Below are positions 251-17,263 of a stretch of 20,657 nt of DNA, piece after piece. How positions within the stretch are numbered: the first letter of the stretch is position 1; every line of letters begins with the position of its first letter. The stretch lies in the IMG/VR virus record IMGVR_UViG_3300048591_000339, positions 1-20,657 of that record. One strand, 5' to 3'. This stretch comes from a virus. Below the pieces are notes generated by a model. The model worked only from the letters and a program-made list of their open reading frames with translations, was not told the origin of the DNA and did no database searches. The position numbers and the translations under genes are program-made.

Positions 251-915
251 GCCCATGTCCCTATGCTGGTGTTGGCACCGTGCGCGCCAATCGGCGCAAT
301 GCGCATGAAAGAGTTGGCGTCCGTGGTGTAAGCCCCGCCCGGAGCCGCCGACAGGCTGTACTGAGGAATAAATGTCCCAGCCACATTGCATGAGACAATG
401 CCGCGCACGACAACGCGCACATGGTTTGATGCGACGGCCATAGCCGACGTGATCGTGGCCGTCGACGCGGACGTGAGGTTATGAATGAATGACGCCACCG
501 TGGCCCCGGGCACGACGGCCACCGAGCTATTGAGGACTGTATACGTGATGCTATTCAGCGTTGCCGTCCCGCCAAACAGCAAGCGGAACTGGTGCGATGT
601 GGTCCCGGCGCTTTTTGTGAAGCTGGCCACGATGTCGAATTGATAGACGGTTGATGCCGCCAGTGCGCAGCCCACGCCAAACATAGATTGAGCGCCCGTT
701 GCGTCTGCTCCTGCCAGTCCTGCGTGCAGCCGGAACACTTGCTCGACCGGCACGAACCCGTCGACATCGCCCGAATACGTGAGCACTCCGCCGGTAATCG
801 GAAACCGCCCCTCCAAAACCGTCGCCCGGCCTTCAAGCGCGGTTGCGCGCGTGCCAAGCTGCACGATTTCGCTATTGATGCGGGTCCGGTTGGTTTCTCC
901 GACAGCAAGGGTCAT
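247..915 (-). CDS. Putative short tail fibre or appendage protein
   Basis: This 222-residue protein probably sits on the virion surface. I chose the ATG at 915 because it overlaps the stop of the nozzle gene (TGATG). An upstream in-frame ATG at 969 would add 18 residues inside that gene. Residues about 10-42 form a short heptad-like stretch with the near-repeat RATALEG/RATVLEG, typical of trimerising fibre stems. The rest is Thr/Ser/Ala/Val-rich beta sequence with no enzyme motif and no Cys cluster. The position directly after a gp10-like nozzle is where P22-like phages carry tail needle or fibre genes. It could instead be a head fibre. The coiled coil and beta-rich body are visible; the fibre role is inferred from these and from context. 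Confidence 0.6.
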   Translation of the reverse strand: MTLAVGETNRTRINSEIVQLGTRATALEGRATVLEGRFPITGGVLTYSGDVDGFVPVEQVFRLHAGLAGADATGAQSMFGVGCALAASTVYQFDIVASFTKSAGTTSHQFRLLFGGTATLNSITYTVLNSSVAVVPGATVASFIHNLTSASTATITSAMAVASNHVRVVVRGIVSCNVAGTFIPQYSLSAAPGGAYTTDANSFMRIAPIGAHGANTSIGTWA

Positions 916-2603
916 CAGTACCTCCCCGCCTTGCGAAATTCCGGATGAATGCCCGTTGCAAACGTCCACGCAGTTCCGGAAGGAATGCGCAGCCGCGCGC
1001 GGGCGTAGCGGGTGTTTTCCAGCACAAAGGCGTTGCCGTCGTCGTCGATCGCGCTTTCCGTGCCATCGACAGGGATCTCCGAGCGCTTCCCGCGGCCGAC
1101 GATGCTGGCATACCCGGTCTCGGCATCGGTCTCAGGCCGCAGGTTGTTGACCTCGATCCGCGATCCGGAAATCTCCTGCTCCGGTGTCTCAATGCGCGCT
1201 TCCATTGAGTCGCCAGAGAGAAACCCGATCTTGTTAGCCGTGTCGCACAGCGCCAGCGCCGGCAGCGTGGCCGACGACACAGCATCCAGAGAGAATTCGA
1301 GCGCATCCAGATCACCGCCGACGATGCCGCCCGACGTGTACACACCTGCAAACGTCGATCCGTCCAGATCGAACGTCGTGCCATTAATCACCGTGATCGT
1401 CCACGTTCCATTGGCAGCCGTGACACCGCCAACCGCTGAAATGGTCTTCACATCGCCCGTCGTCAGTGTCGAGGTATCTGCGACCGTGATCCGGATTAGG
1501 CCCGACCCATTATCGGCGGCCCCGGTGATGGTCAGAGCACCCGGCGCAATGGCGTCCAGGCCCTCTAGCGTCAAGCCGGGGCGGGAGAGCGGCGCCAGGT
1601 ACTGCCCGGCAATCTCGATCGGCGCCCATCGCTGCAGAATGTAATTGTACGCCAGCAGGCGATCGAACTGACTGGCCGAGCCGGCCACATCCCGGTATGA
1701 CCACATGACAACGCCGCGTGTCGGGTCGGCTGCTGCTACGATATATTGCGGGGCGGCAAGGTCTGCGCCGTCCAGGAACGTCCGGTTGACCTTTTCCTCA
1801 CCGATTTCCGAAATCGCGCCGTCGACCGTCATGGAGATGAAGCCGCGGGTCGTGTATGCAAAAATCTGGTTATTGGCCGTTGTCACCCCGTCGGCGCCGA
1901 TTACGCCGAGCTTTTCCCCGATGCGGTCGATCGAGAACACAATGTCGCTGCCCTGGGCATAAATCATGCGGCGCATTTCGGTATCCTGCATGATGACGCC
2001 AAGCTCACCGCCCACAATGGCGCGCGGAATGCCGCCCGATGGCAAATCCTGATAGTCCGAGAAGTTTGTGCCCGCCGTCCAATTCGTGGTGTCGTTCAGC
2101 CCGCTCCAGGCAATGCGATAGGGGTTTGACAGCAGATCGCAGAGCACGAGAAAGCGGTTCACCACAGCGATGTTCCCGGCTTGTGGCGGCGATCCTGGGG
2201 CGGCGGCGAACGCCGACGAGGATGTGAGGTCAAAGCGTTGCAGCACGGCATTGCGCTGCGTGGCGAACACGTAGTTGTTGAACTGGACAAACCGCCAGTT
2301 ACGATCGTTGTCGAGGCTCGTATAGGTGCCGGCGCCCAGCGACACATCGGTCCAGGCCAGCGTGGTGTTGTCGAGCTTGTACAGCTTGGTTGCGGTGCCG
2401 GCGAAGATCGTCACGGTGGCATCGGCGTTGCGGGCAAAGAAGAACCCCCGGCAGTTAGCCGCCAGCGCATCAGTGTAGGGCTCGAACTCTTTTACCGGGC
2501 CGTAGCCGTCGGCGCGCGGCAACACGTTCTCAATCTCAGAGGTATACTCCCGATTGAGGTCTGAAACGTCCGGCCGATATTCTCCGAAGGCCAGCAGCGC
2601 CAT
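915..2603 (-). CDS. P22 gp10-like tail nozzle (packaged DNA stabilisation) protein
   Basis: This 562-residue protein is predicted to form the hub or nozzle below the gp4-like adaptor, closing the portal channel and anchoring fibres. The start at 2603 overlaps the adaptor stop (TAATG). The N-terminus (MALLAFGEYRPDVSDLN, then ENVLPRADGYGPVKEFEPYT) is characteristic of gp10-like proteins in many podoviruses. The beta-propeller-like body follows, with phrases such as RIAWSGLNDTTNW and LGVIMQDTEMRRMIY. Residues about 353-430 (nt about 1314-1547) form an Ig-like Gly/Thr-rich block with ANGTWTITVINGTTFDLDGS, resembling the E1_FCCH domain often found in phage structural proteins. It appears inserted between LEGLDAI and DLDALEFSLDA, a segment that normally reads continuously. 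The C-terminal part resumes with ETPEQEISGSRIEVNNLRP. Its place next to the adaptor agrees with P22 gene order. Confidence 0.85.
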   Translation of the reverse strand: MALLAFGEYRPDVSDLNREYTSEIENVLPRADGYGPVKEFEPYTDALAANCRGFFFARNADATVTIFAGTATKLYKLDNTTLAWTDVSLGAGTYTSLDNDRNWRFVQFNNYVFATQRNAVLQRFDLTSSSAFAAAPGSPPQAGNIAVVNRFLVLCDLLSNPYRIAWSGLNDTTNWTAGTNFSDYQDLPSGGIPRAIVGGELGVIMQDTEMRRMIYAQGSDIVFSIDRIGEKLGVIGADGVTTANNQIFAYTTRGFISMTVDGAISEIGEEKVNRTFLDGADLAAPQYIVAAADPTRGVVMWSYRDVAGSASQFDRLLAYNYILQRWAPIEIAGQYLAPLSRPGLTLEGLDAIAPGALTITGAADNGSGLIRITVADTSTLTTGDVKTISAVGGVTAANGTWTITVINGTTFDLDGSTFAGVYTSGGIVGGDLDALEFSLDAVSSATLPALALCDTANKIGFLSGDSMEARIETPEQEISGSRIEVNNLRPETDAETGYASIVGRGKRSEIPVDGTESAIDDDGNAFVLENTRYARARLRIPSGTAWTFATGIHPEFRKAGRY

Positions 2604-3244
2604 TAGAAGTCCGTAGGCGTGACCGCCCACCCTCCCGTCTGCACTTTGTTGGACGTGCGGATCTTGAGCCGCGTCAGGATCTCGTCTGCTGCACCCGAGG
2701 CGATCTGCGCGCGCTCCGTGTCGACGATGACGTGGGCGAACAGTTCAAACTGCGCCCTCATGCGAATGAGCTTTTCGGCTTCCACCATCCACGGATTGCC
2801 CGTTTCTCCGGATGTGGCAGGAGCCGCAACCTTGATCACGCCGCCCACGCGCACCGTATACACGTCGTCGGGAACGGGATAGAGCCGGAACCGCTTATCA
2901 TAGAACGTGTAATAGCGCGGCTCGCCGGTCTGGGTACCCTGCTCTGACAGTTCTTCAATGCGGGTGGGGGTTTCTTCGTACAGCTTCACGACCTGGTTGT
3001 CGTCAAGTTCAAGCTTGACGTAGTCGATCTTCTCGATCAGGCCGATGTCGGCATCGTCCGTGGCGGTGTAAAATTGCTGATCGACAACGCTGGCGAATGT
3101 CATTTCGCGGCTGACGTTGAACCAGAAGCGTTCGCCCTGATAATGGTCTATCGCGGTATAGATGGCTTCCTCGATCTGCGTGTTGATGTTGGAGCGGCGG
3201 ACTTCGCGCGCGATCCGGTCAATCATCGTGGCGAGCGTGGTCAT
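2603..3244 (-). CDS. P22 gp4-like head-tail adaptor protein
   Basis: This 213-residue protein likely forms the ring joining portal to nozzle after packaging. The ATG at 3244 gives MTTLATMIDRIAREVRRSNI, a typical opening for this adaptor family. An upstream TTG at 3304 would add an unlikely Ser/Pro/Arg-rich leader. It contains IEEAIYTAIDHYQGERFWFN, then RFRLYPVPDDVYTVRVGGVI and a helical C-terminal region (EKLIRMRAQFELFAHVIVD), the order seen in podovirus gp4-like and 'phage adaptor' proteins. The stop overlaps the nozzle start by one base. The upstream stop in another frame (TGA at 3246-3248) lies one base before this ATG, so translation could be coupled to whatever is translated there. A weak Shine-Dalgarno sequence (GGATGG) lies 6 bases before the start. 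Confidence 0.75.
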   Translation of the reverse strand: MTTLATMIDRIAREVRRSNINTQIEEAIYTAIDHYQGERFWFNVSREMTFASVVDQQFYTATDDADIGLIEKIDYVKLELDDNQVVKLYEETPTRIEELSEQGTQTGEPRYYTFYDKRFRLYPVPDDVYTVRVGGVIKVAAPATSGETGNPWMVEAEKLIRMRAQFELFAHVIVDTERAQIASGAADEILTRLKIRTSNKVQTGGWAVTPTDF

Positions 3245-3245
3245 A

Positions 3246-3359
3246 TCAGGCCATCCAGATTGCAGACGAGATGAACAGGCAGGCGGCGAGGAACTTCGTC
3301 CCAAAGCAGAGCGTGCTCAGTTCTTGGCGAGCAGCGCTAAGGCGGTCGCCCAGTCTATT
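3246..3359 (-). other. Possible -1 frameshift extension of the holin-like gene
   Basis: The minus-strand frame entered by a -1 slip on the seven-A run (3364-3358, codons AAA AAA then A) stays open for 37 more residues and ends at TGA 3248-3246, one base before the adaptor ATG. Its end (STLCFGTKFLAACLFISSA) is hydrophobic enough for a transmembrane helix. A product of about 94 residues with two membrane segments would result, against 70 residues and one segment without slippage. No ATG, GTG or TTG with a ribosome site opens this stretch independently. The heptamer is preceded by C, so it is not an ideal A-AAA-AAG type slippery site. This may be chance. Confidence 0.25.
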
Positions 3360-3529
3360 TTTTTGCCTATTGCCGCGCCGATCACTGCCAGACCCACCGC
3401 CACCATGTACCAGTCCCGCGGCGTGATCTTGCTGCTTTCCAAGTCGTCCAGGCGATCCCCGTGCGACTCGACCTTCATCTCGACCACCGTAAGACGGTGT
3501 TCGGTTTTCAAATTGTGTGATGACGGCAT
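3317..3529 (-). CDS. XhlA/holin-like small membrane protein
   Basis: This 70-residue protein has an N-terminal coiled-coil-like helix (about 6-33, RLTVVEMKVESHGDRLDDLE) and one transmembrane segment (about 40-55, WYMVAVGLAVIGAAIG) preceded by the turn KITPRDW. That is the plan of the hemolysin XhlA/holin-type proteins found beside phage structural genes. A lysis accessory role in the inner membrane is therefore plausible but unproven, and no endolysin is visible nearby. I chose ATG 3529; a GGGCGGGA Shine-Dalgarno-like tract ends 10 bases upstream. An ATG at 3536 opens a different frame of low-complexity sequence. The gene follows a strong terminator at 3566-3598, so it needs readthrough or its own promoter. 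A seven-A run near its 3' end allows a possible -1 frameshift. Confidence 0.6.
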   Translation of the reverse strand: MPSSHNLKTEHRLTVVEMKVESHGDRLDDLESSKITPRDWYMVAVGLAVIGAAIGKKIDWATALALLAKN

Positions 3530-3565
3530 TGGCCATGTGTCCCGCCCCGCTGCGTTCGGCCTTGT

Positions 3566-3598
3566 AAAAACCCAGGGGGCGATGGGGAGCCCCCTGGG
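3566..3598 (-). terminator. Strong intrinsic terminator inside the structural operon
   Basis: On the minus strand a perfect 10-bp stem (CCCAGGGGGC, 3598-3589, with GCCCCCTGGG, 3580-3571) and an 8-base loop is followed directly by five Ts (3570-3566). It sits 29 bases after the decoration-protein stop and before the holin-like gene. It should strongly lower transcription of the adaptor, nozzle and fibre genes relative to the capsid genes, unless an antitermination factor acts. The NusG-like protein encoded at 18745-19272 is a candidate. Confidence 0.9.
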
Positions 3599-3626
3599 GT
3601 CGTCTGGGCTTGGAGTGTGGGGACGC

Positions 3627-4025
3627 TTACGGAGCCAGGATGTATTCGATCCACACGCGGCCGGCGCCGGCGGTGGCCGCCGTGCCCGTGAGATCGACAG
3701 TGCAGTTGATGAGCGTATCGACCGTGACATAAGCGTCGTTGGTCGTCGCCATTTCGTCGGCCACGATCACGCCAATCGTGCCGAGCGCCAGATCCGTTGC
3801 GAAGCCGTCGTCATCGGCAACGGTGCCGATATCGAGGACGTTCGTGGACCCGGCGTTGAAGGCCGTCGTGACGACCACGCCGCCCCGGATGACCATGGCG
3901 CCGGCAGGGATGTACCCGAGAGGCACGACAAGGCCGTCGTCGGCGTAGGTGATGTTGGCAGACAGGTAGTGCACCTGATGCGTCTGGTATTCGCGCGCGT
4001 TCGTGCCCGCGGTATTGGTAGCCAT
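3627..4025 (-). CDS. Putative capsid decoration / head structural protein
   Basis: This 132-residue, beta-rich, Ala/Thr/Gly/Val-rich protein has no enzyme motif. It begins MATNTAGTNAREYQTHQVHY and contains a central LGYIPAGAMVIRGGVVVTTAF, a pattern typical of small head decoration or stabilisation proteins that lie directly after the major capsid gene. It is separated from the capsid stop by 22 bases, with a good ribosome site (GGGAG, 8 bases before the ATG). A strong terminator follows, so capsid and decoration proteins form the highly expressed end of the upstream transcript. It could alternatively be a head-fibre-like protein. The structural role is inferred from position and composition. 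Confidence 0.6.
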   Translation of the reverse strand: MATNTAGTNAREYQTHQVHYLSANITYADDGLVVPLGYIPAGAMVIRGGVVVTTAFNAGSTNVLDIGTVADDDGFATDLALGTIGVIVADEMATTNDAYVTVDTLINCTVDLTGTAATAGAGRVWIEYILAP

Positions 4026-4047
4026 GATGGTTTCTCCCGATCAGGAA

Positions 4048-5139
4048 TTAGACTGCACGAGCGGCGTAGGTGGACACAACGACGGTGCCGAAGTCCTTCG
4101 AGTCGAAGCGGCACTTCTTGAGGCCCCAGATGGTCCAGGCGCCGACTTCGAGTTCGCGTTCGTGGTCGATGAGTTCTTCTGACCAACGGTACTTCATCGG
4201 CCCCTGCGGGTTGCCGTTGCCGTAGCCGATGGCGGCCGCCTGAGCACCCAGCAGCACCGCGCGGCGCACCGTGGTGATGGCCACACCGGTGGAGCCGTTC
4301 ACGCCCTGCGTCACGTCCTGAGACTGCCGGAGGATGACGCCATTGTATTCGCCGAGCGCGCCCGAATAGATCGGGTTCTTGCTGACATCCACGCCGCTAT
4401 AGGCGTACTTGGTGATATCCTGCCAGCCGCCCGTCGACGTGGTCGTGCGCAGGCTCGTGACCTGGGCCGGGTCGAGATACATGACATATTTCGGCATCCC
4501 GCCGACCATGACCGGGCGGACCATGTTGTTGCCGATCGCGGCGACTTCCTTGGCTTTGTCGATCAAGGACACAACGAACGTGTCGCTCGATCCCAGGCCC
4601 TGGTCGTTGGTGGCCGTGCCCGCCCAAATGTGGCGGGTGGACGACGGCGCGACAACGGAGTTGAAGCCGGTGAAGCGCAGACCTGATGTGGTGGAGTCGG
4701 TGTTAGCCGGCGTGTAGCCGCAGACGTGGTTGAAGAACGAGACGCTCTTGCGGTCCTTGAACCAATCCTTCAGACCGTCCTTGGCTTCCGAGCGGATATC
4801 GAAGGGCACGCGCTGTGCGTCGATGGTATTGTCAGAGCGGCTGCGCACCGTGTTGCCGAGTTCGTTGATGAGGATGGCGTCGGAATAGATCGAGAGGCTT
4901 TCTCCGTTGCCGACGGCCTTCTGACCTTCCGTGAAGCCAGCGCCAGAAAGCCGCGTGCGCAGGCCATAGGTCACCTGGTCGCCGCGCTTTTTGGAAAAGT
5001 CCGTCTTGACGTGAATGATGCTGTCCGAGGTTTCGCCCATGAGCTTGCCGATGTCGGACGTGTCGCGCTCTGCCTGCGCCAGTTCCTTGGCCCAGAGCTT
5101 CTGAGCCATGGCGTCATTGACTGCGAATGAGGTGGTCAT
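4048..5139 (-). CDS. Major capsid protein, DUF4043/N4-gp56 type
   Basis: This 363-residue protein forms the procapsid shell around the scaffold. Recognisable parts are the N-terminal AQKLWAKELAQAERDTSDIG, the segment RGDQVTYGLRTRLSGAGFTE, the phrase ILINELGNTVRSRS, the arm HVCGYTP, the VGGMPKYVMYLDPAQVTSLR strand and the RAVLLGAQAAAIGYG region near the C-terminus. This order matches the DUF4043/N4-gp56 family of HK97-fold capsid proteins. The start at 5139 has an AGGGGG ribosome site 4 bases upstream. A 271-base gap separates it from the scaffold, unusual in this otherwise gapless operon, and may carry expression signals that raise capsid output. Confidence 0.9.
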   Translation of the reverse strand: MTTSFAVNDAMAQKLWAKELAQAERDTSDIGKLMGETSDSIIHVKTDFSKKRGDQVTYGLRTRLSGAGFTEGQKAVGNGESLSIYSDAILINELGNTVRSRSDNTIDAQRVPFDIRSEAKDGLKDWFKDRKSVSFFNHVCGYTPANTDSTTSGLRFTGFNSVVAPSSTRHIWAGTATNDQGLGSSDTFVVSLIDKAKEVAAIGNNMVRPVMVGGMPKYVMYLDPAQVTSLRTTTSTGGWQDITKYAYSGVDVSKNPIYSGALGEYNGVILRQSQDVTQGVNGSTGVAITTVRRAVLLGAQAAAIGYGNGNPQGPMKYRWSEELIDHERELEVGAWTIWGLKKCRFDSKDFGTVVVSTYAARAV

Positions 5140-5410
5140 AGTGCCCCCTGATGGTTCTGCCGATTGTGGGATTGCTCAGGTAACGCCCTAAGCGCGGCGG
5201 AACGATCTAACGTGATCGGGGACGTTGACCTATTGTGCGCGGGTCAAAGCGCGGAACAGCTTAACGGGCTGGAGCGGTCGGGCGGCTTGCTGTCGTGGAA
5301 AATCTTCTAGCTGGAGGAAAGAAGATCACACCAAGCACGCCCGACACCTTGATAACTGTGCTGATTTGCGCAGTGTGGCAAGAGCACGGCGAAATCGTGG
5401 GAGGTCTGGT
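5140..5410. other. 271-base gene-free gap between scaffold and capsid genes
   Basis: No open frame with a ribosome site was found on either strand. Three inverted repeats are visible: ATCTTCT/AGAAGAT (5302-5308 and 5320-5326, 11-base loop, followed on the minus strand by four Ts); an ACTGTGC/GCGCAGT pair with one G-U near 5356-5376; and TTGACC/GGTCAA (5225-5230 and 5242-5247). The first could be a weak attenuator after the scaffold gene. The last could be an operator. I found no convincing -35/-10 pair on the minus strand. Its most likely role is setting capsid expression apart from scaffold expression. Confidence 0.45.
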
Positions 5411-6439
5411 TTACCCTCCGATCACCTTGCGCCACGCGGCCGGGCCGTGCTTCGCAATGTACGCTTCGCGCATCCGAATGCCATCAGCTTCTGACGAGTT
5501 CAGGTATTCCTGAATGCTGAACCCTTCTGACATGCCGCCCTCTCCGGCTCCTCGCAGGGAAGCGCTGGCGCGTCGTCCGTTTTCCAGCTGCTCGATTTGC
5601 TTTGCTGCTTCTGCCAAAGCGTTTGGTGCTGCGGTGGCAGTCTTTCGGAACCCTCGTGCGGTGGCCAGCTTAAAGAGACGCTCCGCAGGAGACTTCCCGG
5701 CGCGCAGAGCTTCCGCCACGACATCGCGGGCCTCCTCTTTAAGCAGGCGATCACGTTCGGCTTTGTCGTCGATGCCAAGCGCTTCCATTTCAGCATGACG
5801 CTGCTGCACGAGGTAGGCGAATGCATCTCCAAACGCGGGCTCGGCCGCCTTGAAGCGGTTCATGTCCGCGACGAAAGCCGAGTTGGTGCGGTCCTCCTGC
5901 GTCGATCGCTGCATCTGGGCGATCATGGCCTGGGTTTTCTCGAACCGGGCCTTCATCTGCTTCGCGTAGCCAAAAATATCCTGTTCCGGGTCGATGTCGG
6001 GCCCGTCCGCAAGGTCGAGTTCGGCAGCGGCCTGCTTCGGGGGCGCGGTTGCTTCCGTCAGGATGGCCAAGCGCTCTTTCGCGGCGATCAGGCTTTCGCG
6101 ATACGTCTGCGCCTCGTTGCGTGCCGTCTTGGCCGTCTCCTTCACACGCAGGTAGGCTGACCGCGGTACGAACTTCCCCGTCTTGGGATCGCGTGCCGGG
6201 GCGTCGGCGTCACCATCGAGGTCGTCATCGTATACGCCAACGTCATCCTGCTCTTGCGCCACATTGGCGTTAATCGGGTCGTCTTGCGCCAAATTCTGGA
6301 CGGACGGCACAAGCCCATCCGTCTTTTCACCCCGGCTTTCGAAATAAGCGCGTTCGGCCGGCGTAAAGTCGTCAGAAGCCGTGACCTCGATCTGAGGCGC
6401 CGGCGTGGTCGAAACTGCTGCTTGCGTGCTCACAATCAT
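5411..6439 (-). CDS. Capsid scaffolding protein
   Basis: This 342-residue, highly charged, Ala/Glu/Lys/Arg-rich and mostly helical protein sits between portal and capsid genes, the canonical scaffold position. Residues about 60-85 are very acidic (DDVGVYDDDLDGDADAPARD), followed by the basic turn PKTGKFVPRSAYLRVKETA, which occurs in many podovirus scaffold-like proteins. Long helices follow (about 95-310), then a short C-terminal part ending YIAKHGPAAWRKVIGG. Scaffolds usually bind coat through a basic C-terminal helix-turn-helix; the final Arg/Lys-rich residues fit that loosely. The start overlaps the portal stop (ATGA at 6436-6439). It acts inside the procapsid and would leave before or during packaging. 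Identification rests on composition, position and family resemblance. Confidence 0.8.
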   Translation of the reverse strand: MIVSTQAAVSTTPAPQIEVTASDDFTPAERAYFESRGEKTDGLVPSVQNLAQDDPINANVAQEQDDVGVYDDDLDGDADAPARDPKTGKFVPRSAYLRVKETAKTARNEAQTYRESLIAAKERLAILTEATAPPKQAAAELDLADGPDIDPEQDIFGYAKQMKARFEKTQAMIAQMQRSTQEDRTNSAFVADMNRFKAAEPAFGDAFAYLVQQRHAEMEALGIDDKAERDRLLKEEARDVVAEALRAGKSPAERLFKLATARGFRKTATAAPNALAEAAKQIEQLENGRRASASLRGAGEGGMSEGFSIQEYLNSSEADGIRMREAYIAKHGPAAWRKVIGG

Positions 6440-8616
6440 GCTCCATTCATGAGGCCGCCCGGCAGTGCCAGCCCACTGGGCATAGCGCCATTACCGGCGG
6501 ATGTTTCAGGCATCGGAGCGGCCTGTGCAGGCTCTGCCCCCAACTCAGGCACTTGGCGCAAGGGGCTGGGCGCCTCTCCGCCGTTCGTTCCCATGATCGG
6601 CTGGCCGTCGTCCTCGATCAGCTGCTTTCCGGCACCAAACCCCATGGCAGCAAGCGCCGCTTCGAACGTCGCGACCTGCATGGCGTTCTGTTCGCTTGCG
6701 GCTTTGGCCAGCGACAGCACCGCGCCAGCGGCCTTGCTCTGGGCAGAGGCTTCCTTGTCCGCAACTTCCGCTTCTGCGGAGCGCTTCGAGAGGGCCTGCG
6801 CTTCCTCTTTGGCCGGATCCGGCTTGCTGGCCATCTCGCGGAAGGCCTGTACGAGCTTTGCAGGCAGCCCAGGCACGTAGTCGAGCAGCACCATAATGTG
6901 TTCCGGGCCCACCATGCCTGCCTGCATGAGCGGCGGCAGCAGGATCTGAATGGACGCCCAAATCTTTTCTTTGCTGTTCGGGCTCGTCGGAGCATCCGAG
7001 ATCACAACATCGTACTTGCCCATGACTTTGTCGCGCACGAGCGGGATAGATTCCTGCGCATCCTCACCCGCAATGCGGATCAGGCGTCCGTCGGCCAGCA
7101 CGGTCTGGATGTAGTGCAGGCGCACGCGCCCCACGCGCTCGCGGAACATCGCCATGCTGTCGAACAGGGTCGCCAGGATGGTCATCGCAGCCTGCTTGCG
7201 CTGCGTTTCGAGCACGCCTGCTTGATCGCGGTTGGCGAGCCCCATCAACTCCAAATTGATGCCCGTCACTTCAGAGAACATCTGATCGGTGATCTGGATC
7301 AGGTTGAGGACGCCAGAGGTAAAACCCTGGCCCGGCTTGGCCATCACCTTGCCCTTGGAGATCGCGCCGGGGTTGACGACGACGATCCCCTCCGGCCGGG
7401 CGTAGTTGCGCTTGGCTTCCTCGACATCTGGGAAAGCATCGCTCTCCGCAATGATGCCGCCTTTGGCCGTGGCGTTGACGATGTGCATCAACTGGGCAAA
7501 AAACTTGTTGCCCCAGGTCTGGGGATCGCGAATGTCGCGGATGAGACCGGAGAAGGTGCCGTCCTCGTTCGGCTCCCAGGTGGTGCAGTTCATCGTGAAG
7601 TTGGTCGGGCACGGGCAGTCACCGGAATGCAGCAGAACGCTCCCGAGGAAGGCCTGCTTGTAGACCTTGCGGCGCATTTTTGTGCCCGGCCACTTGCCCG
7701 TAGGGCTCAAAGCGCCATAGGACTTCTGCGCCTTGGCATAGTCGGCTTCCGACATGTCGATAATGCGCTGCGCCTGCGGATTGCGGATCGCGTCCGGGTT
7801 TGCCGCGCGGTAATACGGTTCGAACTCCCACCATTGCACCTGCACGAGCGTCACGGTACGCTTGGGGTCGTTGTCGATATGATGTTCTTCGCGCAGTTCC
7901 TTCTGCTCTTGCGTGCGCGGCTCGTTGGCGGGTGCCGTCACGTCAGAGGCCCAGGAGGCATCGAGATCGAAATCGCTGAACTTTTTGTTTGTCAGGCCTC
8001 CGATGATATTGCGGGCATCGGCCACACGCATCTTGCGCACGCGCGCAACGCGCTTGGCGTCCAGGATGTTCTGGTCGCGCGCTTCCCGGTCCCACACCAT
8101 TTCACACGGGTGAATTCGGCACTCTTCATAAAGGCCCTGGGGATCGTCGTCGTAACTGATGATCGCTTCCGTCCAGCCCATGCCGCAGATCGTGGCATCG
8201 CGAAATGCCCGGCTCTGGTGGCGCGTGGCGAAGCAGCTATCTTCCATCCACTGCGAGGCTGCGGACAACAACTCGTTGGCCTTCACTTCCCCTGGGCTGT
8301 CGAGCTCACGGGGAAGATAGGCCGTTTCCATGCGATTATTCGTCTCGATCCCGCAGATGGCGCGCACGTATTTGTTGGTCTTATTGAACGTGACAACGGG
8401 CCGGCTTTCGTCCTGAAGTTTCTTGCGGTCGGCTTCGTCCCACTGGCCTGGACCTTGGGAAAACTTGAAATCATTCGACGCCTGCCGGCGCCACGCCGAC
8501 GTGTGGTCGATGTCATCGGACACGCAGGCTTTGAGCGAGGCAAACAGCTCCTCGTCCTTCATGCGCGCGGAGCCGCGGTCGTCCTTGTCGTATGTCGTCC
8601 CGGCGTCCGTTTCCAT
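6436..8616 (-). CDS. P22-type portal protein (portal B)
   Basis: This 726-residue protein matches the P22 gp1-like portal family in length and order. It has a clip/stem entry with RPVVTFNKTNKYVRAICGIE (about 72-91), the wing region, and the crown signature FSEVTGINLELMGLANRDQAG (about 447-467), followed by the long helix QRKQAAMTILATLFDSMAMF and a barrel-like Ala/Glu-rich C-terminal tail (about 600-726, ending in a Pro/Gly-rich segment). Portals form the dodecameric ring through which DNA enters and leaves. It is followed by scaffold and capsid genes, the standard order. The start at 8616 has GGAG 10 bases upstream; Met19 is a possible alternative. The oddity is that a second portal-like protein is encoded after the terminase at 11090-13186. 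Confidence 0.85.
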   Translation of the reverse strand: METDAGTTYDKDDRGSARMKDEELFASLKACVSDDIDHTSAWRRQASNDFKFSQGPGQWDEADRKKLQDESRPVVTFNKTNKYVRAICGIETNNRMETAYLPRELDSPGEVKANELLSAASQWMEDSCFATRHQSRAFRDATICGMGWTEAIISYDDDPQGLYEECRIHPCEMVWDREARDQNILDAKRVARVRKMRVADARNIIGGLTNKKFSDFDLDASWASDVTAPANEPRTQEQKELREEHHIDNDPKRTVTLVQVQWWEFEPYYRAANPDAIRNPQAQRIIDMSEADYAKAQKSYGALSPTGKWPGTKMRRKVYKQAFLGSVLLHSGDCPCPTNFTMNCTTWEPNEDGTFSGLIRDIRDPQTWGNKFFAQLMHIVNATAKGGIIAESDAFPDVEEAKRNYARPEGIVVVNPGAISKGKVMAKPGQGFTSGVLNLIQITDQMFSEVTGINLELMGLANRDQAGVLETQRKQAAMTILATLFDSMAMFRERVGRVRLHYIQTVLADGRLIRIAGEDAQESIPLVRDKVMGKYDVVISDAPTSPNSKEKIWASIQILLPPLMQAGMVGPEHIMVLLDYVPGLPAKLVQAFREMASKPDPAKEEAQALSKRSAEAEVADKEASAQSKAAGAVLSLAKAASEQNAMQVATFEAALAAMGFGAGKQLIEDDGQPIMGTNGGEAPSPLRQVPELGAEPAQAAPMPETSAGNGAMPSGLALPGGLMNGA

Positions 8617-8620
8617 GGTC

Positions 8621-8911
8621 TTAAATCTCCGCCTTGATGTTGTGGAGTGTGCCGGAGCCGGACTTCACCGCGGCCTTGGTGAGCACGACAGCCAAGTGAT
8701 CGCGATAGCCGGCCATCTTCTGCGCCACGTCGCGCAGTATCATGGATACTGGCGCTACGTGAGGCCCGACCATGCCGGCCTGATCCTCAAGTTCTTGGAT
8801 CCACTTGTCGTGGGCTTCTTTCATGCCGAGCAGCACAAGCTGATCGCGGGTGAGCTTGCGCTGATCGAGTTCGACGAAAGCGCCGTCGGGCGCGTGCGCG
8901 GTGTCTGTCAT
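8621..8911 (-). CDS. Unknown 96-residue protein upstream of portal B
   Basis: I do not recognise this protein. It is mixed helical, with LDQRKLTRDQLVLLGMKEAH and an N-terminal extended acidic part, a Met/Val-rich middle (GMVGPHVAPVSMILRDVAQK) and an LHNIKAEI end. There is no signal peptide, transmembrane helix or metal-binding motif. Its start overlaps the stop of the preceding gene (ATGA at 8908-8911) and only 4 bases separate it from the portal start, so it is translated with the portal. A small head-assembly or chaperone-like role for portal B is a guess from position alone. The real-gene call rests on the tight overlaps at both ends. Confidence 0.7.
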   Translation of the reverse strand: MTDTAHAPDGAFVELDQRKLTRDQLVLLGMKEAHDKWIQELEDQAGMVGPHVAPVSMILRDVAQKMAGYRDHLAVVLTKAAVKSGSGTLHNIKAEI

Positions 8912-9312
8912 TGTTTCACCAGATTAGGGGATGCAATCAACGCCGGATCATACAGACGCACGCCTGTAGGCGTTTCATATCCAGGAGGCTCACCGTCAGT
9001 CCCGACAAATGCAGCCCACTCCATGGCGATGCCAGTGCGAGCGTCGATCATGTCGAGGAGATTGGTACGCTCGAAGAGGTCGGCTTCAGGTGGCCAGCCG
9101 CCTTCTGGCGTGGGCTTCGTCAGGGTGTCTGCGCTCGATGAGTGATACCAGAAGTTCCAAAGCGAGCGTGTGCCCGAATGCGGGACTTCCGCGATATGCA
9201 CGTGCACGAGAGGGACAGGCTCACCGCTAGACACATCTGCAATGCCTAGCGCTGCCATGGTCGCAAGGGCTGTTGCTCTATCAGGGGCGGAAGCATTGAC
9301 GAGGATTTCCAT
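8908..9312 (-). CDS. Unknown 134-residue phage protein
   Basis: I do not recognise this protein. It starts MEILVNASAPDRATALATMA, a strand followed by a helix. A middle containing VPLVHVHIAEVPHSGTRSLWNFWYH and a later segment ERTNLLDMIDARTGIAMEWAAF suggest a compact alpha/beta fold. No membrane segment or catalytic signature is visible. It has the strongest ribosome site in this part of the operon (AGGGGAGGAA, 4 bases before the ATG), overlapping the stop of the fibre gene. It lies between the lectin-like fibre and the portal B cluster, so it could serve the fibre (chaperone or cap) or be an accessory gene. Confidence 0.7.
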   Translation of the reverse strand: MEILVNASAPDRATALATMAALGIADVSSGEPVPLVHVHIAEVPHSGTRSLWNFWYHSSSADTLTKPTPEGGWPPEADLFERTNLLDMIDARTGIAMEWAAFVGTDGEPPGYETPTGVRLYDPALIASPNLVKQ

Positions 9313-9324
9313 TTTGTTCCTCCC

Positions 9325-10857
9325 CTATGCCGTTGTCATGGTTTGAAGGGTGGCGTCGGCTTTTCGCTCAGGGAAGTAAGCCAATACGGACAGCAGGAAG
9401 GGAGACGAACCTCCATAGGAGCCGTTCCCGGAGCCTAGTGTCAGTAGATTGACAGTGCCCGGCATTGTAACACTTGTCGTATCCGCGATTGACAGGGTGC
9501 CATCAACCGCCCCGCGCGCATTGTTGACCTCAGCCGCCATTGCGTACTTGTGTGCGCCGACAACTGGAGACAGATAACTTCCTTCCGCAAAAGACACTGA
9601 CCCCCCATTGCGCACAATCGGTATAATGGAGCTAGGTGTGAAGTAGAACCCAAAAATCTCAGCTATGCCGCTGGTCGGTTTTAGTTTTGCAATGTCGGTT
9701 ATTCCAGTACTAAGCAACGTGAATCCCGAATACAGCGTCTCCGCTGTAGTGCTTAGAGGGAACAGCGTCGTTGCTATGGCGATATTATCCGCCGCCCTCG
9801 TGACTGCCGCTGCATAGGTGATGATGGGGCTCGTGACGACCGTTCCCGTCTCATGCTGGAGACACCAGACATCAACTTCATCGCCGCTTGTGACAATGCG
9901 GATGCCAACGGTCGGATTGGTGGATGTGACAGCCGCAAGCGAGACCCGCGTCCACGAGCTTGTGACTGTCTGCGTCGTCCACGTTGACCCGTTATCCTGC
10001 GTCAGATCGATGTTGCCTGAGCCCGTGCGCCGCTTGATGTAGACGCTCGTTACGCGAGACGACGAAGCCGACGTGATGGCTTGCAGCGCCGTGGCGTTCC
10101 CAGCCGTCGCTGTCAGCGTACTAGCGCTGTTGGCGACGTTATCAGGACCCGTCGCTGTCAGCGCCGCTGTCAGATTGGATTTGGTCCACGAGGCGTTCGT
10201 GAAATCGTTAGAACGCAGGCACAAATTCGTGGCCGCAGGTTCCACCAGTATCCCCGTCCTCACTCCCCCGCTGAAGACATAAGGGAGATCGTAGACGGCT
10301 GCCGATGTCGTTGCGACGTAGGTAGAGACGGAAGGCGTGCGGCGGACGTGCACCGTGCCGCTGCCCGAGGTAGACCCGCATGTCAGCGTGCCCGAAGCCG
10401 CCGTGAATGTCGTCGTGCCTGCAGTGACTGTGCCCGTCGCGGCGCCTGATAGCGTAATGGAGACGCTGCCCGTGATGGTGATCGCATACGTTGCGCCACT
10501 GATAACGGTAATGGATTGATTGGCCGGGGTTGCGCTGTTGAGATACAGATTGTGCGCCTGCCCGGCGATGAAGCCGTCTGCCTGCTCCGTGAACTTGAGC
10601 GAGGGCGCAGTATACGTCAGCTTACTCCCAGGTCCTAGCAGTGCTCCTGTAGTGGCAGAGACTGTGCCCTGGGAGGAGTAGTCGAGAACGTCGGTTTCAT
10701 CGTTGATCGAGATACTGGCATCGGTGAAATCCATCACCATGCCGTAGGGGCCGTAATTCGATAAGAACGTGCTGGACAGCAGCCCGCCGTCAGCAGCGTC
10801 TGAAACGCCGCCCGTGAATCCCACGTCAATCGTGCCAACCCCAAAGCCGAGCCGCAT
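9325..10857 (-). CDS. Lectin-like phage fibre / surface appendage protein
   Basis: This 510-residue Ser/Thr/Ala/Gly-rich beta protein is likely a receptor-binding or surface fibre. The start at 10857 overlaps the preceding stop (TAATG); the longer frame from 10932 lies inside the upstream gene. The N-terminal part (about 1-100) is an attachment-like domain, and residues about 115-170 form Thr/Gly-rich Ig-like repeats. Residues about 202-228 contain GILVEPAATNLCLRSNDFTN, a phrase seen at the entry of carbohydrate-binding jelly-roll domains in many phage tail proteins. The C-terminal third resembles a concanavalin/LamG-like sandwich, ending LLSVLAYFPERKADATLQTM. It sits between the two portal genes, an unusual position, and may have arrived as a module. 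Confidence 0.7.
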   Translation of the reverse strand: MRLGFGVGTIDVGFTGGVSDAADGGLLSSTFLSNYGPYGMVMDFTDASISINDETDVLDYSSQGTVSATTGALLGPGSKLTYTAPSLKFTEQADGFIAGQAHNLYLNSATPANQSITVISGATYAITITGSVSITLSGAATGTVTAGTTTFTAASGTLTCGSTSGSGTVHVRRTPSVSTYVATTSAAVYDLPYVFSGGVRTGILVEPAATNLCLRSNDFTNASWTKSNLTAALTATGPDNVANSASTLTATAGNATALQAITSASSSRVTSVYIKRRTGSGNIDLTQDNGSTWTTQTVTSSWTRVSLAAVTSTNPTVGIRIVTSGDEVDVWCLQHETGTVVTSPIITYAAAVTRAADNIAIATTLFPLSTTAETLYSGFTLLSTGITDIAKLKPTSGIAEIFGFYFTPSSIIPIVRNGGSVSFAEGSYLSPVVGAHKYAMAAEVNNARGAVDGTLSIADTTSVTMPGTVNLLTLGSGNGSYGGSSPFLLSVLAYFPERKADATLQTMTTA

Positions 10858-11093
10858 TAGTACCCCGCGTGCACAACAAGGCTGGACGTGGTGCCGGTCA
10901 ACCAAACCCGCGTAACCCGGATCGGATGCCAACCTGCCGTGAGGTCAATCGTGCGGGCGTTGCCGTTCTTCGTCGTCACCTTGACGGTGCCGGCAACTGG
11001 CAAATACAGCGCGCGGCTGCCTGCTGCGATGTCTGCGCTATCGCTCAAAGTCACAGGGATCACATCCTCAACAGGATCACTCAAATAGCTCAT
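10857..11093 (-). CDS. Small phage structural protein of unknown role
   Basis: This 78-residue all-beta protein contains ALYLPVAGTVKVTTKNGNAR, then a Gly-Trp turn and IRVTRVWLTGTTSSLVVHAG. The pattern 'y-v-x-x-a-G-x-v-k-v-x-x-x-d-G ... P-v-r-v-x-r-v-x-a-T-G-T-t' is widespread among small uncharacterised phage proteins located near head and fibre genes. A spike- or fibre-base role is plausible. The start overlaps the portal A stop (ATGA at 11090-11093) and its stop overlaps the fibre start, so it is coupled to both. No membrane segment or Cys is present. Confidence 0.75.
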   Translation of the reverse strand: MSYLSDPVEDVIPVTLSDSADIAAGSRALYLPVAGTVKVTTKNGNARTIDLTAGWHPIRVTRVWLTGTTSSLVVHAGY

Positions 11094-13186
11094 GCGCGTG
11101 CTTCTCCGTTCTGAGGCTTGGCCTTCATCGCGGCCTGCTTTTTCATACCGTCCAGCTTAATGCTGTTGGCTTCCTGCTCATGCTGGCGCTGATCAAAGCG
11201 GTCTTGACGATCAAGCTCCGCGCCTTCGCGCTGCATCTGTATGTCCATGGTCTTGGCTTGCATATCCATTTCCATGGCCTGCTGCTTCAAGCTGAGTTCT
11301 GCCTGTTTAAGCTGCAGTTCCGCCTGCTTGATCTGCAGATCCATGGCGGCGCTCTGTTCCTTGATCTGCGCCATGCGCTCTTCGTGCGCGGCCTTCTGCT
11401 GTAGGCTCTGCGCTTCAAGCTGGACCTTCTGCTGATTGGCTTCCATGTCAGCTTTGGCCTTGACCGCTTCAGGATTCTCCTGCGGCGGCGCTTGGGCTGC
11501 TTCCTGGGCCTTTTCCTGTAGGCTCTCAAGCGCGTCTTCAGCTTGCTTGCCAAGCTTGAAGTGCCTGGCGAACTGGGAGAACACCTCCACCATGACCGGC
11601 AGCGCGGGCTGGGCCACCTGCGGAGCGCCTTGGACAAATCCTGCAATGGCGCTTGAGAATTGCGCTGTGCCCTGCAAGAAAAGGTTCATCTGCTCCTGCT
11701 TGCGGCCCAAATCCGCGCGCACGGTCGAGTCAGATTCAATGTCGATGCGATACGAGCGCACGTCCTGCTTGAGCATCTGCAGGGCAGCCTGGAACTTCTG
11801 CGCCTCCATCTGATCCTTTTCGGGATCTCCGGTCTGCGCCGGCAGGCTGGTCATCAGGGCGATATTTTGCGCGGTGAAATGGCGAATGATCACAGCCGCT
11901 TTAAGCCGGAAGATGTCGCGAGCAAACCGGGCCACGGCGCTCTGCATATCCTTGACACGCAGCGAGCCCCATTCCTGCTTGATGTTCTGGGCCGTTGCGG
12001 TCTCGTTGGGGTTGGAAGACCCGCGCAGAATGTCAGATAGGCCAGTCACCTCATAGATGGTCTGCTTGATCTGATCGCGCTGGACGTAGAGCTGCTGCAG
12101 GGCGCCCACAATCTCTTTCAGCGGCCAATGGGCGATAGCTTTCTCTAGGCCGCCGCCGCCCGTCGCAAACTGTGTCGCATCCTTGGCTTGGACATATTCC
12201 CCGTCTTCGCAATTGCGAAGCAGTTCGAAGTCCGGCATGAGCTTACTGTCAACAAGGCCGCGCACTCGAAGCTGACTGACCAGCTTACTGATCCGCTTCG
12301 TGACCTTGTCCAGCTCATCAAGCAGCGGCTTATAGATGTCGTACGGGCAGAGAGGAACCAGCGTCTTGACACGGGACAGAAGCTGCAGCGGCTGGGGCAC
12401 TGGGAAGAAGCCCGGCAGGTCCAGCGGGTCGTCTTCAACCTTCAGCGGCTCGTCTTTGTCCTTTGGCGTGATGAAGATGACCTTGCGGGTTGCCTTGTCC
12501 CAGATCTCGTGCACCTTCACGGTCTTGACGATGCCGCGTTCGCCTTCGCAGTCGTCGTCTTTCTCGTCAAAGCCGTAAGACTTAATGCGGGTTTCCGCTG
12601 TTTCCGGGGCGCCAATCAGTTCGGCAATCTGTTCCTTGGTGAGATCGTGGTCAAACCAGATGAACGGGACGTCTTCCCAGTAGAAGCCAGGTCCACGGCC
12701 CCACTTGTCCCAGCCGACGGGTTCGCAGGAGACTTCCTGATAGCCGACTTCCTCACCGTTGAATGAGGGCGTATAGCGCACCCGCGCCGTGCCACGTCCA
12801 GGCACAGCCGCAGCGCGCACAGCAGACGTGATCACCGTGTCATAGGGGTATTGATCGCAGGCGTAGGACACCGCGCGCTCGATGATATCAGCGCCCATCT
12901 TCGCAATCGGGTCTTTATCCCCAAAGCGGCGGCGCACATCCGGAATCGGTGTGGTGTTGTAAAGAGCGGGAACAAGCGTTTCGACGTTGGAGTGATAGAG
13001 GTTGAACGAAGTGTTGCTGTCCTTATGGGCCTCATAGACCTTAACAGCTTCCTCGCCGCGCTTGCGCCAATCCTCTTCATCCTTGCGCGCAGCCTCTATC
13101 CGCTTCAGCCAGATTTCCACCGGCTTGAGGCCAGCAGCTAAGGCGTCTTTGACTGAATCGATCTGCTGTCCGTCTTGCTCAGCCAT
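11090..13186 (-). CDS. Portal-like protein following the large terminase (portal A)
   Basis: This 698-residue protein directly follows the large terminase, the canonical portal position. Residues about 61-110 read like a portal wing entry (FNLYHSNVETLVPALYNTTP). A crown signature follows at about 376-400 (IYEVTGLSDILRGSSNPNET), with the run AQNIKQEWGSLRVKDMQSAV and a helix RDIFRLKAAVIIRHF. Residues about 575-680 form a long Gln/Lys/Glu-rich coiled coil with repeated KQAELQLKQAEL-type heptads. The EVTG-x(5-6)-G-x(5-7)-ET layout is shared with portal B at 6436-8616, but the surrounding sequences are otherwise unlike. It overlaps the terminase stop by 8 bases. It could be the active portal, a second portal or a portal-derived internal virion protein. 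Confidence 0.75.
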   Translation of the reverse strand: MAEQDGQQIDSVKDALAAGLKPVEIWLKRIEAARKDEEDWRKRGEEAVKVYEAHKDSNTSFNLYHSNVETLVPALYNTTPIPDVRRRFGDKDPIAKMGADIIERAVSYACDQYPYDTVITSAVRAAAVPGRGTARVRYTPSFNGEEVGYQEVSCEPVGWDKWGRGPGFYWEDVPFIWFDHDLTKEQIAELIGAPETAETRIKSYGFDEKDDDCEGERGIVKTVKVHEIWDKATRKVIFITPKDKDEPLKVEDDPLDLPGFFPVPQPLQLLSRVKTLVPLCPYDIYKPLLDELDKVTKRISKLVSQLRVRGLVDSKLMPDFELLRNCEDGEYVQAKDATQFATGGGGLEKAIAHWPLKEIVGALQQLYVQRDQIKQTIYEVTGLSDILRGSSNPNETATAQNIKQEWGSLRVKDMQSAVARFARDIFRLKAAVIIRHFTAQNIALMTSLPAQTGDPEKDQMEAQKFQAALQMLKQDVRSYRIDIESDSTVRADLGRKQEQMNLFLQGTAQFSSAIAGFVQGAPQVAQPALPVMVEVFSQFARHFKLGKQAEDALESLQEKAQEAAQAPPQENPEAVKAKADMEANQQKVQLEAQSLQQKAAHEERMAQIKEQSAAMDLQIKQAELQLKQAELSLKQQAMEMDMQAKTMDIQMQREGAELDRQDRFDQRQHEQEANSIKLDGMKKQAAMKAKPQNGEARA

Positions 13187-14549
13187 CGCGTTCGCGCTTG
13201 CGCTTTCTCATCTCGACAATCTCACGGACTGTCATGTTGGGCCGGATCTGGCCGTTATCGTCGGCGGTGTAGATAAGCTCGTCTTTATTGACGTGCGGCT
13301 TTGGCGGCTCAATCTTCATCTCTTTCCAGGCCATGGCCATGTATCGGAAAGCGTCCGCCGTGTGGCTTGTCCAATCGTGCTTTGGTGTCTTCTTGAAAGC
13401 CTTGGACTTCTCGTCGTACTCCGTCCGGTATTGGCGCAGCGCCTCAAGCCCGAACTTGCATTTGTAGGCATCGAACCAGCACTGCTTGAGCGTCATCCGG
13501 CCTGCGTTAATGCCGTCCTCAACCGTGTGATTGTCTACGATGCGAAAATCGTCGCCCTTCAGCAGATCTTGAAGCTGTTCCACACGCGTGCGCTTCATTC
13601 CAAGAATGACGGCTCTAGCGTCGTGGGGAAGGTAGTGGGTGCCGTACTTGTAGCCCCTGGACTGCAACTCTGCGGCGTAGTGGTCGAGTTCTTGCCCAAT
13701 ATTTGAATAGTGATCCAAGACGCGAAGGCCGTTTGGAGACACTTGAAAGAACCAGATTGCAGTGCTGTCTTGCCCTTTGCCCAAGTCCCAAGCCGTGTGC
13801 ACTGGGATGGCTTTGTCTTCCGGCAAATCACAGATGCGGCATTCGCGTTCGGCGTCCGCAATGCCTTTACCGTAGTAGGCGCCCATAATCGCAGCATCAA
13901 ACGAGCATTCGTATTCCTGCTCATACTGCTCAGGCGTCATGCTCTTGCGAGCGTCTTCAAGCTCTTCAAAGTCGACAAGGCCCGTACTGGACGCCTTAAG
14001 CATGGCCCGAAACCATGCGTCGTCTTTGCCGGCTAGGTCCCAGACTTCCCAGAAAGCGTTACGGCCTTTCGGGGTGCCAATGAATGTGGCCCAACCCTTG
14101 CGGTCAGATAGAGCCGGGCGGATGACCTCAGGCCATGCCCTTGGGTCCATGTCGGCAGGCTCGTCAAGCACCACCCCGTCGAGATAGAGACCGCGCATGC
14201 GGTCGTAATTGTCTGCGCCGTACAAGCGAATGCGCGCGCCGTTCGGGAAATCAACGCGAAGCTCGCTTTCGTTGTTCTCAACCCCAGGGATGACGCTTGA
14301 GAACTTCTTGAGATAGTTCCAGGCTACGTCTTTGGCCTGTGTGTAGTACGGCGCTAGATAAGCAAACCTGGGGTCAGGCTTCTGGCACGTTAGAGCCGCT
14401 TTGATCAGTTCGTTAATACACGCAACCGTCTTGCCAGCGCGACGATGGGCAACGATGCAGGCCCATCTCTCTTTGCGCAAATGAAAGTCGACAAACTCGG
14501 CGCGCGGGGTGTACGGGATCGTGACCCGTACTACTTCATGCCGGCCCAT
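13179..14549 (-). CDS. terL: Terminase large subunit (packaging ATPase-nuclease)
   Basis: This 456-residue protein is the DNA-packaging motor. The ATPase half has a Walker A-type loop at 35-42 (HRRAGKTV, Lys40), a Walker B at 126-131 (VVLDEP, Asp129 and Glu130) and a coupling-type motif at 156-162 (FIGTPKG). The RNase H-like nuclease half has the expected acidic residues in HTAWDLGKGQDSTA (Asp255), YLPHDAR (Asp310) and SHTADAFRYM (Asp399). Length and order are normal for phage TerL. It overlaps the small-subunit-like gene by 19 bases and the portal-like gene by 8. The Lys/Arg-rich end (MRKRKRERDG) is a common tail. All catalytic residues appear intact, so the motor should be functional. Confidence 0.95.
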   Translation of the reverse strand: MGRHEVVRVTIPYTPRAEFVDFHLRKERWACIVAHRRAGKTVACINELIKAALTCQKPDPRFAYLAPYYTQAKDVAWNYLKKFSSVIPGVENNESELRVDFPNGARIRLYGADNYDRMRGLYLDGVVLDEPADMDPRAWPEVIRPALSDRKGWATFIGTPKGRNAFWEVWDLAGKDDAWFRAMLKASSTGLVDFEELEDARKSMTPEQYEQEYECSFDAAIMGAYYGKGIADAERECRICDLPEDKAIPVHTAWDLGKGQDSTAIWFFQVSPNGLRVLDHYSNIGQELDHYAAELQSRGYKYGTHYLPHDARAVILGMKRTRVEQLQDLLKGDDFRIVDNHTVEDGINAGRMTLKQCWFDAYKCKFGLEALRQYRTEYDEKSKAFKKTPKHDWTSHTADAFRYMAMAWKEMKIEPPKPHVNKDELIYTADDNGQIRPNMTVREIVEMRKRKRERDG

Positions 14550-14779
14550 TCGACCGTAATTGTTGTCTTCAGCGGCGCATCAGGGTCGCCTGCAACCGTC
14601 ATAGGCAATACCTTGCCAACGAGGGTGAGAAACGCATTCGGGTTAGCATCGGCTTGCTGCATGAGGTAATTGACGCCGCCCTTCTTATCGAGCGCGGTCA
14701 GAATCATTTCCTTGAGATCACCCGTCACCTTGTTGGGCGTTCCCTTGGTTCTGCCGCCGGTCTTAATACCCTTTGCCAT
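14531..14779 (-). CDS. Probable terminase small subunit / DNA-recognition protein
   Basis: This 82-residue protein starts MAKGIKTGGRTKGTPNKVTG. The Lys/Gly/Thr-rich leader 'GRxKGTPNK' is seen in many small phage proteins encoded just before TerL, and is followed by a helical region (LKEMILTALDKKGGVNYLMQ) and the phrase FLTLVGKVLPMTVAGD. Such proteins are usually annotated as small terminase-like. They are shorter than classical TerS proteins but would supply DNA binding before packaging. Its 3' end overlaps the large-subunit gene by 19 bases, indicating joint translation. The upstream leader has two competing hairpins around the ribosome site. The TerS assignment is by position and family resemblance, not by proven function. 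Confidence 0.7.
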   Translation of the reverse strand: MAKGIKTGGRTKGTPNKVTGDLKEMILTALDKKGGVNYLMQQADANPNAFLTLVGKVLPMTVAGDPDAPLKTTITVEWAGMK

Positions 14780-14816
14780 TGTGTTGTCTAAACACCTCTA
14801 CTTTAGATAGCAGAGG
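14780..14816 (-). promoter_or_regulatory. Leader with two competing hairpins before the small terminase gene
   Basis: On the minus strand the only ribosome-site candidate is AGAGG (14799-14795), 15 bases before the ATG at 14779, which is too far for normal use. GTGTT (14795-14791) pairs with AACAC (14785-14781) around a 5-base loop, which would bring the site closer to the ATG. Alternatively AGAGG pairs with CCTCT (14816-14812) and is hidden. The two stems share one base and exclude each other. This could tune terminase translation, or the palindrome may be a protein-binding site. Confidence 0.35.
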
Positions 14817-14850
14817 GCCTTTCCTTCTATTACGCCGGACTAGGTTGCAG

Positions 14851-15093
14851 TTACGACTTGAGCTTATCTAGCGTCTCTTGGCTCGGGATGTTCTCAGCCT
14901 TCACAGCATACAATTGCCGGATGCGGATCCTGATCTCATCAGGGGCAAGCTTGTGCTCTAAAATCGTTGCCACCCTGTCACCGTCTCCATTGCGGAAGGC
15001 AACGAGGGTGCCGTTGTGATAGGTGACGATCTTAGGAGCTGCCGGGGTTAGTTCTTCGACAACGGACTGGATGAAGGCTTGGCGCTCACTCAT
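14851..15093 (-). CDS. Unknown 80-residue protein
   Basis: I do not recognise this protein. The ATG at 15093 overlaps the upstream stop (ATGA), and the longer in-frame extension to 15231 is Cys/Arg-rich shadow sequence of the upstream gene. It starts MSERQAFIQSVVEELTPAAP, continues with two predicted strands (IVTYHNGTLVAFRNGDGDRV) and a charged helix (LAPDEIRIRIRQLYAVKAEN). No transmembrane segment is present. It is the last gene of the membrane-protein trio 15305-16441, 15090-15305 and itself, before a 71-base gap and the terminase genes. A soluble partner of those membrane proteins is possible but unproven. Confidence 0.7.
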   Translation of the reverse strand: MSERQAFIQSVVEELTPAAPKIVTYHNGTLVAFRNGDGDRVATILEHKLAPDEIRIRIRQLYAVKAENIPSQETLDKLKS

Positions 15094-15305
15094 TTGCTCA
15101 GCCAATACCCGCCTGCAATCCATGCGAACGTCTGAGGGTCCGGGGCCATGATCCACGGCACATCGAAGTTGTACAGACGCTCTGCAATAAGCGCAACGGC
15201 AGCGAGTGCTAGACCTAGCCCCGCTGCCCAACGTAGCCAGCCTATTACCCAGTCAATCCAGTTTCGGATGTAGCTCGGCAGGGCCTTGGTGTCGATTTGA
15301 GCCAT
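15090..15305 (-). CDS. Small membrane protein, 71 residues
   Basis: The start at 15305 overlaps the stop of the large membrane protein (TAATG); the extra 12 residues upstream lie inside that gene. It has an amphipathic Trp-rich N-terminal helix (YIRNWIDWVIGWLRW) followed by one clear transmembrane helix (about 24-41, AAGLGLALAAVALIAERL) and a second weakly hydrophobic end (FAWIAGGYWLSK). Size and topology would suit a holin or a membrane partner of the protein encoded upstream, with which it is translationally coupled. I do not recognise a family. There is no lysis gene next to it, which weakens the holin idea. Confidence 0.65.
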   Translation of the reverse strand: MAQIDTKALPSYIRNWIDWVIGWLRWAAGLGLALAAVALIAERLYNFDVPWIMAPDPQTFAWIAGGYWLSK

Positions 15306-17193: not shown

Positions 17194-17200
17194 GCCTCTA

Positions 17201-17259: not shown

Positions 17260-17263
17260 TAAC
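17235..17263 (+). promoter_or_regulatory. Sigma-70-like promoter of the plus-strand operon
   Basis: TTGACT (17235-17240) and TATAAC (17258-17263) are separated by exactly 17 bases, a near-consensus promoter. The start of transcription would be about 17270, leaving a leader of about 28 bases with a GGGAG ribosome site before the ATG at 17298. Repeat copy 2 (17247-17259) lies between and over the boxes, so bound repressor would block polymerase. It is the best promoter I found in the window. Confidence 0.75.

Follow-up and report, generated by a model that had tools for sequence, protein, structure and literature searches.

The stretch of viral DNA analysed here (the window; 20,657 nt, positions 1 to 20,657 of IMG/VR record IMGVR_UViG_3300048591_000339) encodes two different portal-like proteins, of 698 and 726 residues, which raises the question of whether a single phage carries, and perhaps uses, two portals. 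The window is a phage structural region on the minus strand, in which the large terminase gene is followed by genes for the 698-aa protein (portal A), for a three-protein cassette (78, 535 and 134 aa), for a 96-aa protein and for the 726-aa protein (portal B), and then by scaffold, capsid, head, adaptor and neck genes (Table 1). An earlier reading, made from the sequence alone, had placed the gene of portal A directly after the large terminase and that of portal B directly before scaffold and capsid, and this arrangement was confirmed, both genes being complete minus-strand open reading frames.

Table 1. Features of the window. A and B denote the two types of phage to which the two sides of position 8908 are related; L002 and L176 are viral contigs from two other samples.
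Feature	Position	Strand	Evidence and relatives
571-aa virion structural protein B	915..2630	-	PHROG 3287 (6.9e-57); relatives mainly in B phages
SU10-type adaptor B	2603..3304	-	PF24175 (4e-11); relatives in B phages
132-aa head protein B	3627..4025	-	55% identity to RHph_Y1_10 homologue
Major capsid protein B	4048..5139	-	Phage_capsid_3 (7e-90); PHROG 334 (1.3e-84); nearest B phage RHph_Y1_10
Scaffold-like protein B	5411..6439	-	Related genes confined to B-type loci, where they lie between portal B and capsid B
Portal B, 726 aa, P22_portal/PHROG 156 type	6436..8616	-	PF16510, PHROG 156, Foldseek
96-aa gene, first on the phage-B side	8621..8911	-	No relatives detected; codon usage weakly B-like
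Fusion seam at ATGA stop/start overlap	8905..8911	-	Window equals L002/L176 up to 8908 and is unrelated beyond; codon-usage sign change
134-aa gene, last on the phage-A side	8908..9312	-	Identical in L002; 3' end also in L176; A-like codon usage
Spike-like 535-aa tail protein, in an extra cassette behind portal A	9325..10932	-	PHROG 5939 tail protein (2.3e-20)
78-aa tail-fibre-associated protein, in the cassette of the 535-aa tail protein	10857..11093	-	PHROG 12296 tail fiber (5.4e-16)
Portal A, 698 aa, Mx8/PHROG 12082 type	11090..13186	-	PHROG profile, predicted fold, identical copy in L002
Large terminase, phage-A side	13179..14549	-	PHROG 2 (1.4e-42); Terminase_6C; present in L002
Small gene before large terminase	14531..14779	-	Relatives in A and B phages

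Family profiles, a remote profile alignment and predicted folds bore out the portal-like character of both proteins. In the profile search, portal A matched PHROG 12082, annotated as portal protein, over residues 16–474 (1e-141), and gave a weak match to Pfam P22_portal (5.6e-05). Its AlphaFold model (pLDDT 76) has a portal fold, for which the best Foldseek hit was the solved Pan3 portal (E 1.2e-14), and VIA aligned the model with the N4 portal at a Z score of 25.4 (4.3 Å over 402 residues). The portals of N4, P22, Pam1 and T7 aligned with the predicted fold over 300–450 residues with Z scores of 21–25, and Z scores against solved portals reached 28.5. This fold search was used in place of a comparison by sequence, in which the portal A profile matched none of the solved structures. 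Portal B scored above the curated cut-off of PF16510 (P22_portal; 1e-98, 331.8 bits against 26.1) and matched the PHROG 156 portal family (3.4e-93); its AlphaFold model (pLDDT 72) also has a portal fold, with a Foldseek E value of 7.6e-24 to the Pan3 portal and with the P22 and Sf6 portals among the top matches. The fold comparison that the earlier reading had proposed as a check thus placed both proteins with solved portals (Foldseek, VIA).

If the 698-aa protein were instead an internal core or other virion protein, as the earlier reading had considered for one of the two, the window would encode a single portal. Its long, helical C-terminal tail and the weak direct Pfam match could be taken in this sense, but the strength of the PHROG portal family match, the alignment of the predicted fold with the N4, P22, Pam1 and T7 portals, and the fact that this type of protein fills the portal position in phages such as Mx8 and BUCT555, where no portal B was seen, make such a role extremely improbable. 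An internal-core function was accordingly ruled out on fold and family, and it is further contradicted by portal A being the sole portal found in Mx8-like phages.

Portals A and B share no similarity detectable by BLASTP, in agreement with the observation that outside one motif they have little in common, and their homology is a remote one that emerged only when their profiles were aligned with hhalign (probability 95%, E 2.4e-8, 563 columns, nearly end to end). The motif in question, EVTG, had been described as crown-type and as present in both proteins. The two copies do lie in register in the profile–profile alignment, but the letters vary inside both portal families, and no link of the motif specifically to the crown was found. 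Taken together, family profile, remote profile alignment and predicted fold identify portals A and B as genuine P22-superfamily portals with one fold. Tandem duplication of one portal was considered and excluded, given the absence of BLASTP similarity, the remoteness of the homology and the separate sets of relatives.

Among named phages, portal A has relatives in Mx8, Mx9, BUCT555, ppBjS10J-1, RHph_I3_18, Ruegeria 45A6, Mwe-JY13 and one environmental phage, and portal B in phages that include RHph_Y1_10, Mae-JY35, KLEP18-1 and another environmental phage; no named phage record was common to the two lists. The named-phage regions examined each contain a single portal along with a terminase and with a scaffold and capsid of their own, the Mwe-JY13 record starting at its portal. 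In ppBjS10J-1 (L007, 13938–16210) portal A is split across two overlapping reading frames, as it also is in a prophage (L239, 9809–11931), which may reflect a frameshift or a sequencing error in either case.

To assess the pairing of portals with capsids, profiles of both portals and both capsids (types A and B) were run on loci of named phages, on 80 viral contigs of each type and on 80 loci from prophages or genomes. For these scans, the portal A profile was built from a four-sequence alignment, since the full alignment of eight sequences was too divergent. Portal A occurred with capsid A in 130 loci and portal B with capsid B in 71, and neither a mixed portal/capsid pairing nor a second portal was found in any of the approximately 250 other loci, leaving the window as the only one with both. 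Many loci were of sufficient length for this comparison: among the viral and named-phage ones, 6.8 kb or more precede portal B in 45 of the B type, and 6.8 kb or more follow portal A in 46 of the A type. Every related phage, prophage and contig examined thus had a single portal type, which is the outcome that the earlier reading had named as refuting its proposal. An A-like terminase was present in 19 of the loci with portal B and capsid B.

Comparison with viral contigs from other samples located the point at which the window changes character. Contig L002 is 100% identical to window positions 8908–18003 (9,096 bp, no mismatches) and departs from it completely beyond 8908, continuing with a 113-aa gene, a scaffold (366 aa), a capsid (321 aa), an adaptor and a neck protein. 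This continuation matches A-type (Mx8-type) rather than B-type phages, and no second portal was found in L002. A third contig from yet another sample, L176, agrees across the seam with L002 and not with the window (99.98% over 6,150 bp). To the left of the seam, the window matches B-type phages almost exclusively, and contig L004, which starts inside portal B, is 99.99% identical to window positions 1–7141. The phage A side is therefore seen separately with a different continuation (L002, L176), and the phage B side is seen in L004 from 7141 leftwards only. The first 14 nt of L004 repeat, folded back as the reverse complement, a sequence lying about 60 nt further downstream, which is likely a contig-end artefact. 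Searches of viral contigs did not return the A–B junction of the window a second time, and queries with portal B, with the bases immediately past the seam and with the 96-aa gene, meant to recover what natively lies upstream in phage B, returned only L004. The seam itself falls exactly on a gene boundary with all reading frames intact, at a 4-nt ATGA in which the stop of the 134-aa gene overlaps the start of the 96-aa gene. No 15-mer shared between the L002 continuation and the window was found, and local repeats around the seam were limited to 12–13 nt matches, which is chance level. The two portal genes lie on opposite sides of this seam, and the earlier description of a single structural operon does not hold.

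Sequence composition was not uniform across the region either and switched at the same position. Codon-usage references came exclusively from sequence not covered by the window (A: L002 and L176; B: L257, the longer copy of L004), and with them the likelihood favoured B for all eight genes left of 8908 and A for all ten to its right (18 genes tested). The signals of single genes were mostly weak, several with z below 2, and it is the consistent sign with a switch at the seam that constitutes the result. Tetranucleotide patterns agreed with codon usage for the B side, the signature of positions 1–8907 correlating at 0.66 with the remainder of L004 and at 0.18–0.29 with A segments. The two portals belong to two unrelated phage lineages.

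How these lineages came to be joined can be explained in more than one way. The window is probably an assembly chimera of two co-occurring phages, joined at 8908. Positions 8908–20657 would then derive from a phage similar to Mx8, with L002 and L176 showing the head genes that belong to it (113 aa, scaffold of 366 aa, capsid of 321 aa and more), and positions 1–8907 from another phage, akin to RHph_Y1_10, that has a portal, a scaffold and a capsid of its own. The mis-join would have occurred at a short stretch that is the same in both genomes and ends with the start codon of whichever gene follows the 134-aa gene; we infer that the join arose in silico and that phage B carries the matching stretch upstream of its 96-aa gene. 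Three points favour an assembly error: the junction finds no support elsewhere, the A side shows no difference over 9 kb from a parent with a single portal, and chimeras are a known minority among virome contigs, usually amounting to less than 5% of those of at least 10 kb (PMC5610896). The chimeric contigs described there, in which one contig combines two genomes and each half matches a different one, resemble the present case, for which chimerism is most likely, not proved. Against it stand the exact gene boundary with every frame intact and the fact that, for graph assembly to produce a chimera, the two genomes must have one k-mer or more in common, whereas the L002 continuation and the window showed no common 15-mer.

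The same seam would be produced by real recombination, and the window may, with lower probability, represent a very recent recombinant. In it, illegitimate recombination at the ATGA overlap would have transferred the entire head module, from portal B through scaffold B and capsid B to the genes beyond, from a relative of RHph_Y1_10 to a phage of the Mx8 type. Portal A would then be an unused leftover, because the scaffold and capsid fit portal B. Such an origin would agree with the 4-nt overlap at the gene boundary, with the near-identical sequences of these phages in other samples and with the crossing of terminase types between portal types in the 19 loci mentioned above; what keeps it under consideration is the gene-boundary seam with intact frames, together with the lack of a visible shared stretch for a graph chimera. 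The junction lacks a second occurrence, however, and no comparable double-portal intermediate was found in about 250 loci. The absence of any difference from the parental A sequence over 9,096 bp and the unblurred codon usage also speak against it, and would make the event, if real, an extremely recent one. The earlier suggestion of a mosaic genome with a redundant portal came close to the best reading, but from the letters alone it could not be seen that the contig itself is a fusion at 8908. We consider it very unlikely that the contig is faithful and stems from a living phage with two complete, expressed portal genes, whether as a snapshot of a head-module swap in which the old portal had yet to disappear or with both in use for assembly. 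That a stable phage builds two kinds of portal complex, or places both portals in one virion, as had also been proposed, is scarcely credible: both genes are complete and encode portal-fold proteins, but the two portals co-occur in no other locus, each having been seen exclusively with the capsid of its own type, the same A arm has a single portal in L002 with the L002 version of the seam repeated in L176, and an A-type scaffold and capsid for portal A are absent from the window. Literature searches for two-portal phages, assessed by title and abstract, yielded nothing relevant.

The closest known systems differ between the two sides of the window. On the A side, in Myxococcus phage Mx8 (p44 terminase, p45 portal, p46, p47, p48 capsid) and Stenotrophomonas phage BUCT555, the terminase is followed by portal A, as in window positions 11090–14549, and the continuation of L002 resembles Mx8 in its small gene, scaffold, capsid and adaptor. 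Mx8 differs from the window in lacking both portal B and a cassette of tail-protein genes behind its portal. In A-type phages, additional genes often stand between the portal and the small gene next to it, and the cassette of L002 is therefore in a usual place. On the B side, Rhizobium phage RHph_Y1_10, Microcystis phage Mae-JY35 and Paracoccus phage vB_PmaP_KLEP18-1 have portal B, scaffold, a Phage_capsid_3-type capsid and adaptor in the order of window positions 8616–915; unlike in the window, their portal lies at or soon after their own terminase, and portal A is absent.

Several other genes of the window deserve mention. The small gene preceding the large terminase is possibly the small terminase, judging by its position. 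The 571-aa structural protein has one 153-residue match in the A phage ppBjS10J-1, and contains at window positions 1320–1487 (residues ~382–437) a weak match to the FCCH domain of ubiquitin-activating enzyme (5e-05, below the curated cut-off), which is perhaps a small beta domain insertion. Positions 18745–19272 encode a NusG-like transcription antiterminator (PF02357, 1.3e-07; PHROG 6386), adjoined by a DNA methylase at 19269–19964. Two long open reading frames, at 15305–16441 on the minus strand and 17720–18658 on the plus strand, have translations that look alike by eye only (a Cys-containing stretch, then a coiled coil), and the former has no clear family match.

With either a chimera or a recombinant, the natural reading is one working portal per phage, B acting with scaffold B and capsid B and A with partners of its own. 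Each phage would most likely use its single portal in the ordinary way, as a ring at a single vertex, where it nucleates assembly together with the scaffold of that phage and serves for docking of the terminase. Since the contig joins two phages, it is not evidence of a phage with two portals, and the eye-catching idea of a two-portal virion proves misleading. Should reads turn out to back the seam, the window would instead offer a rare view of a head-module swap under way. For this group of phages, the strict pairing of portal and capsid types provides a simple check: wherever a contig departs from this pairing, a fusion should be suspected.
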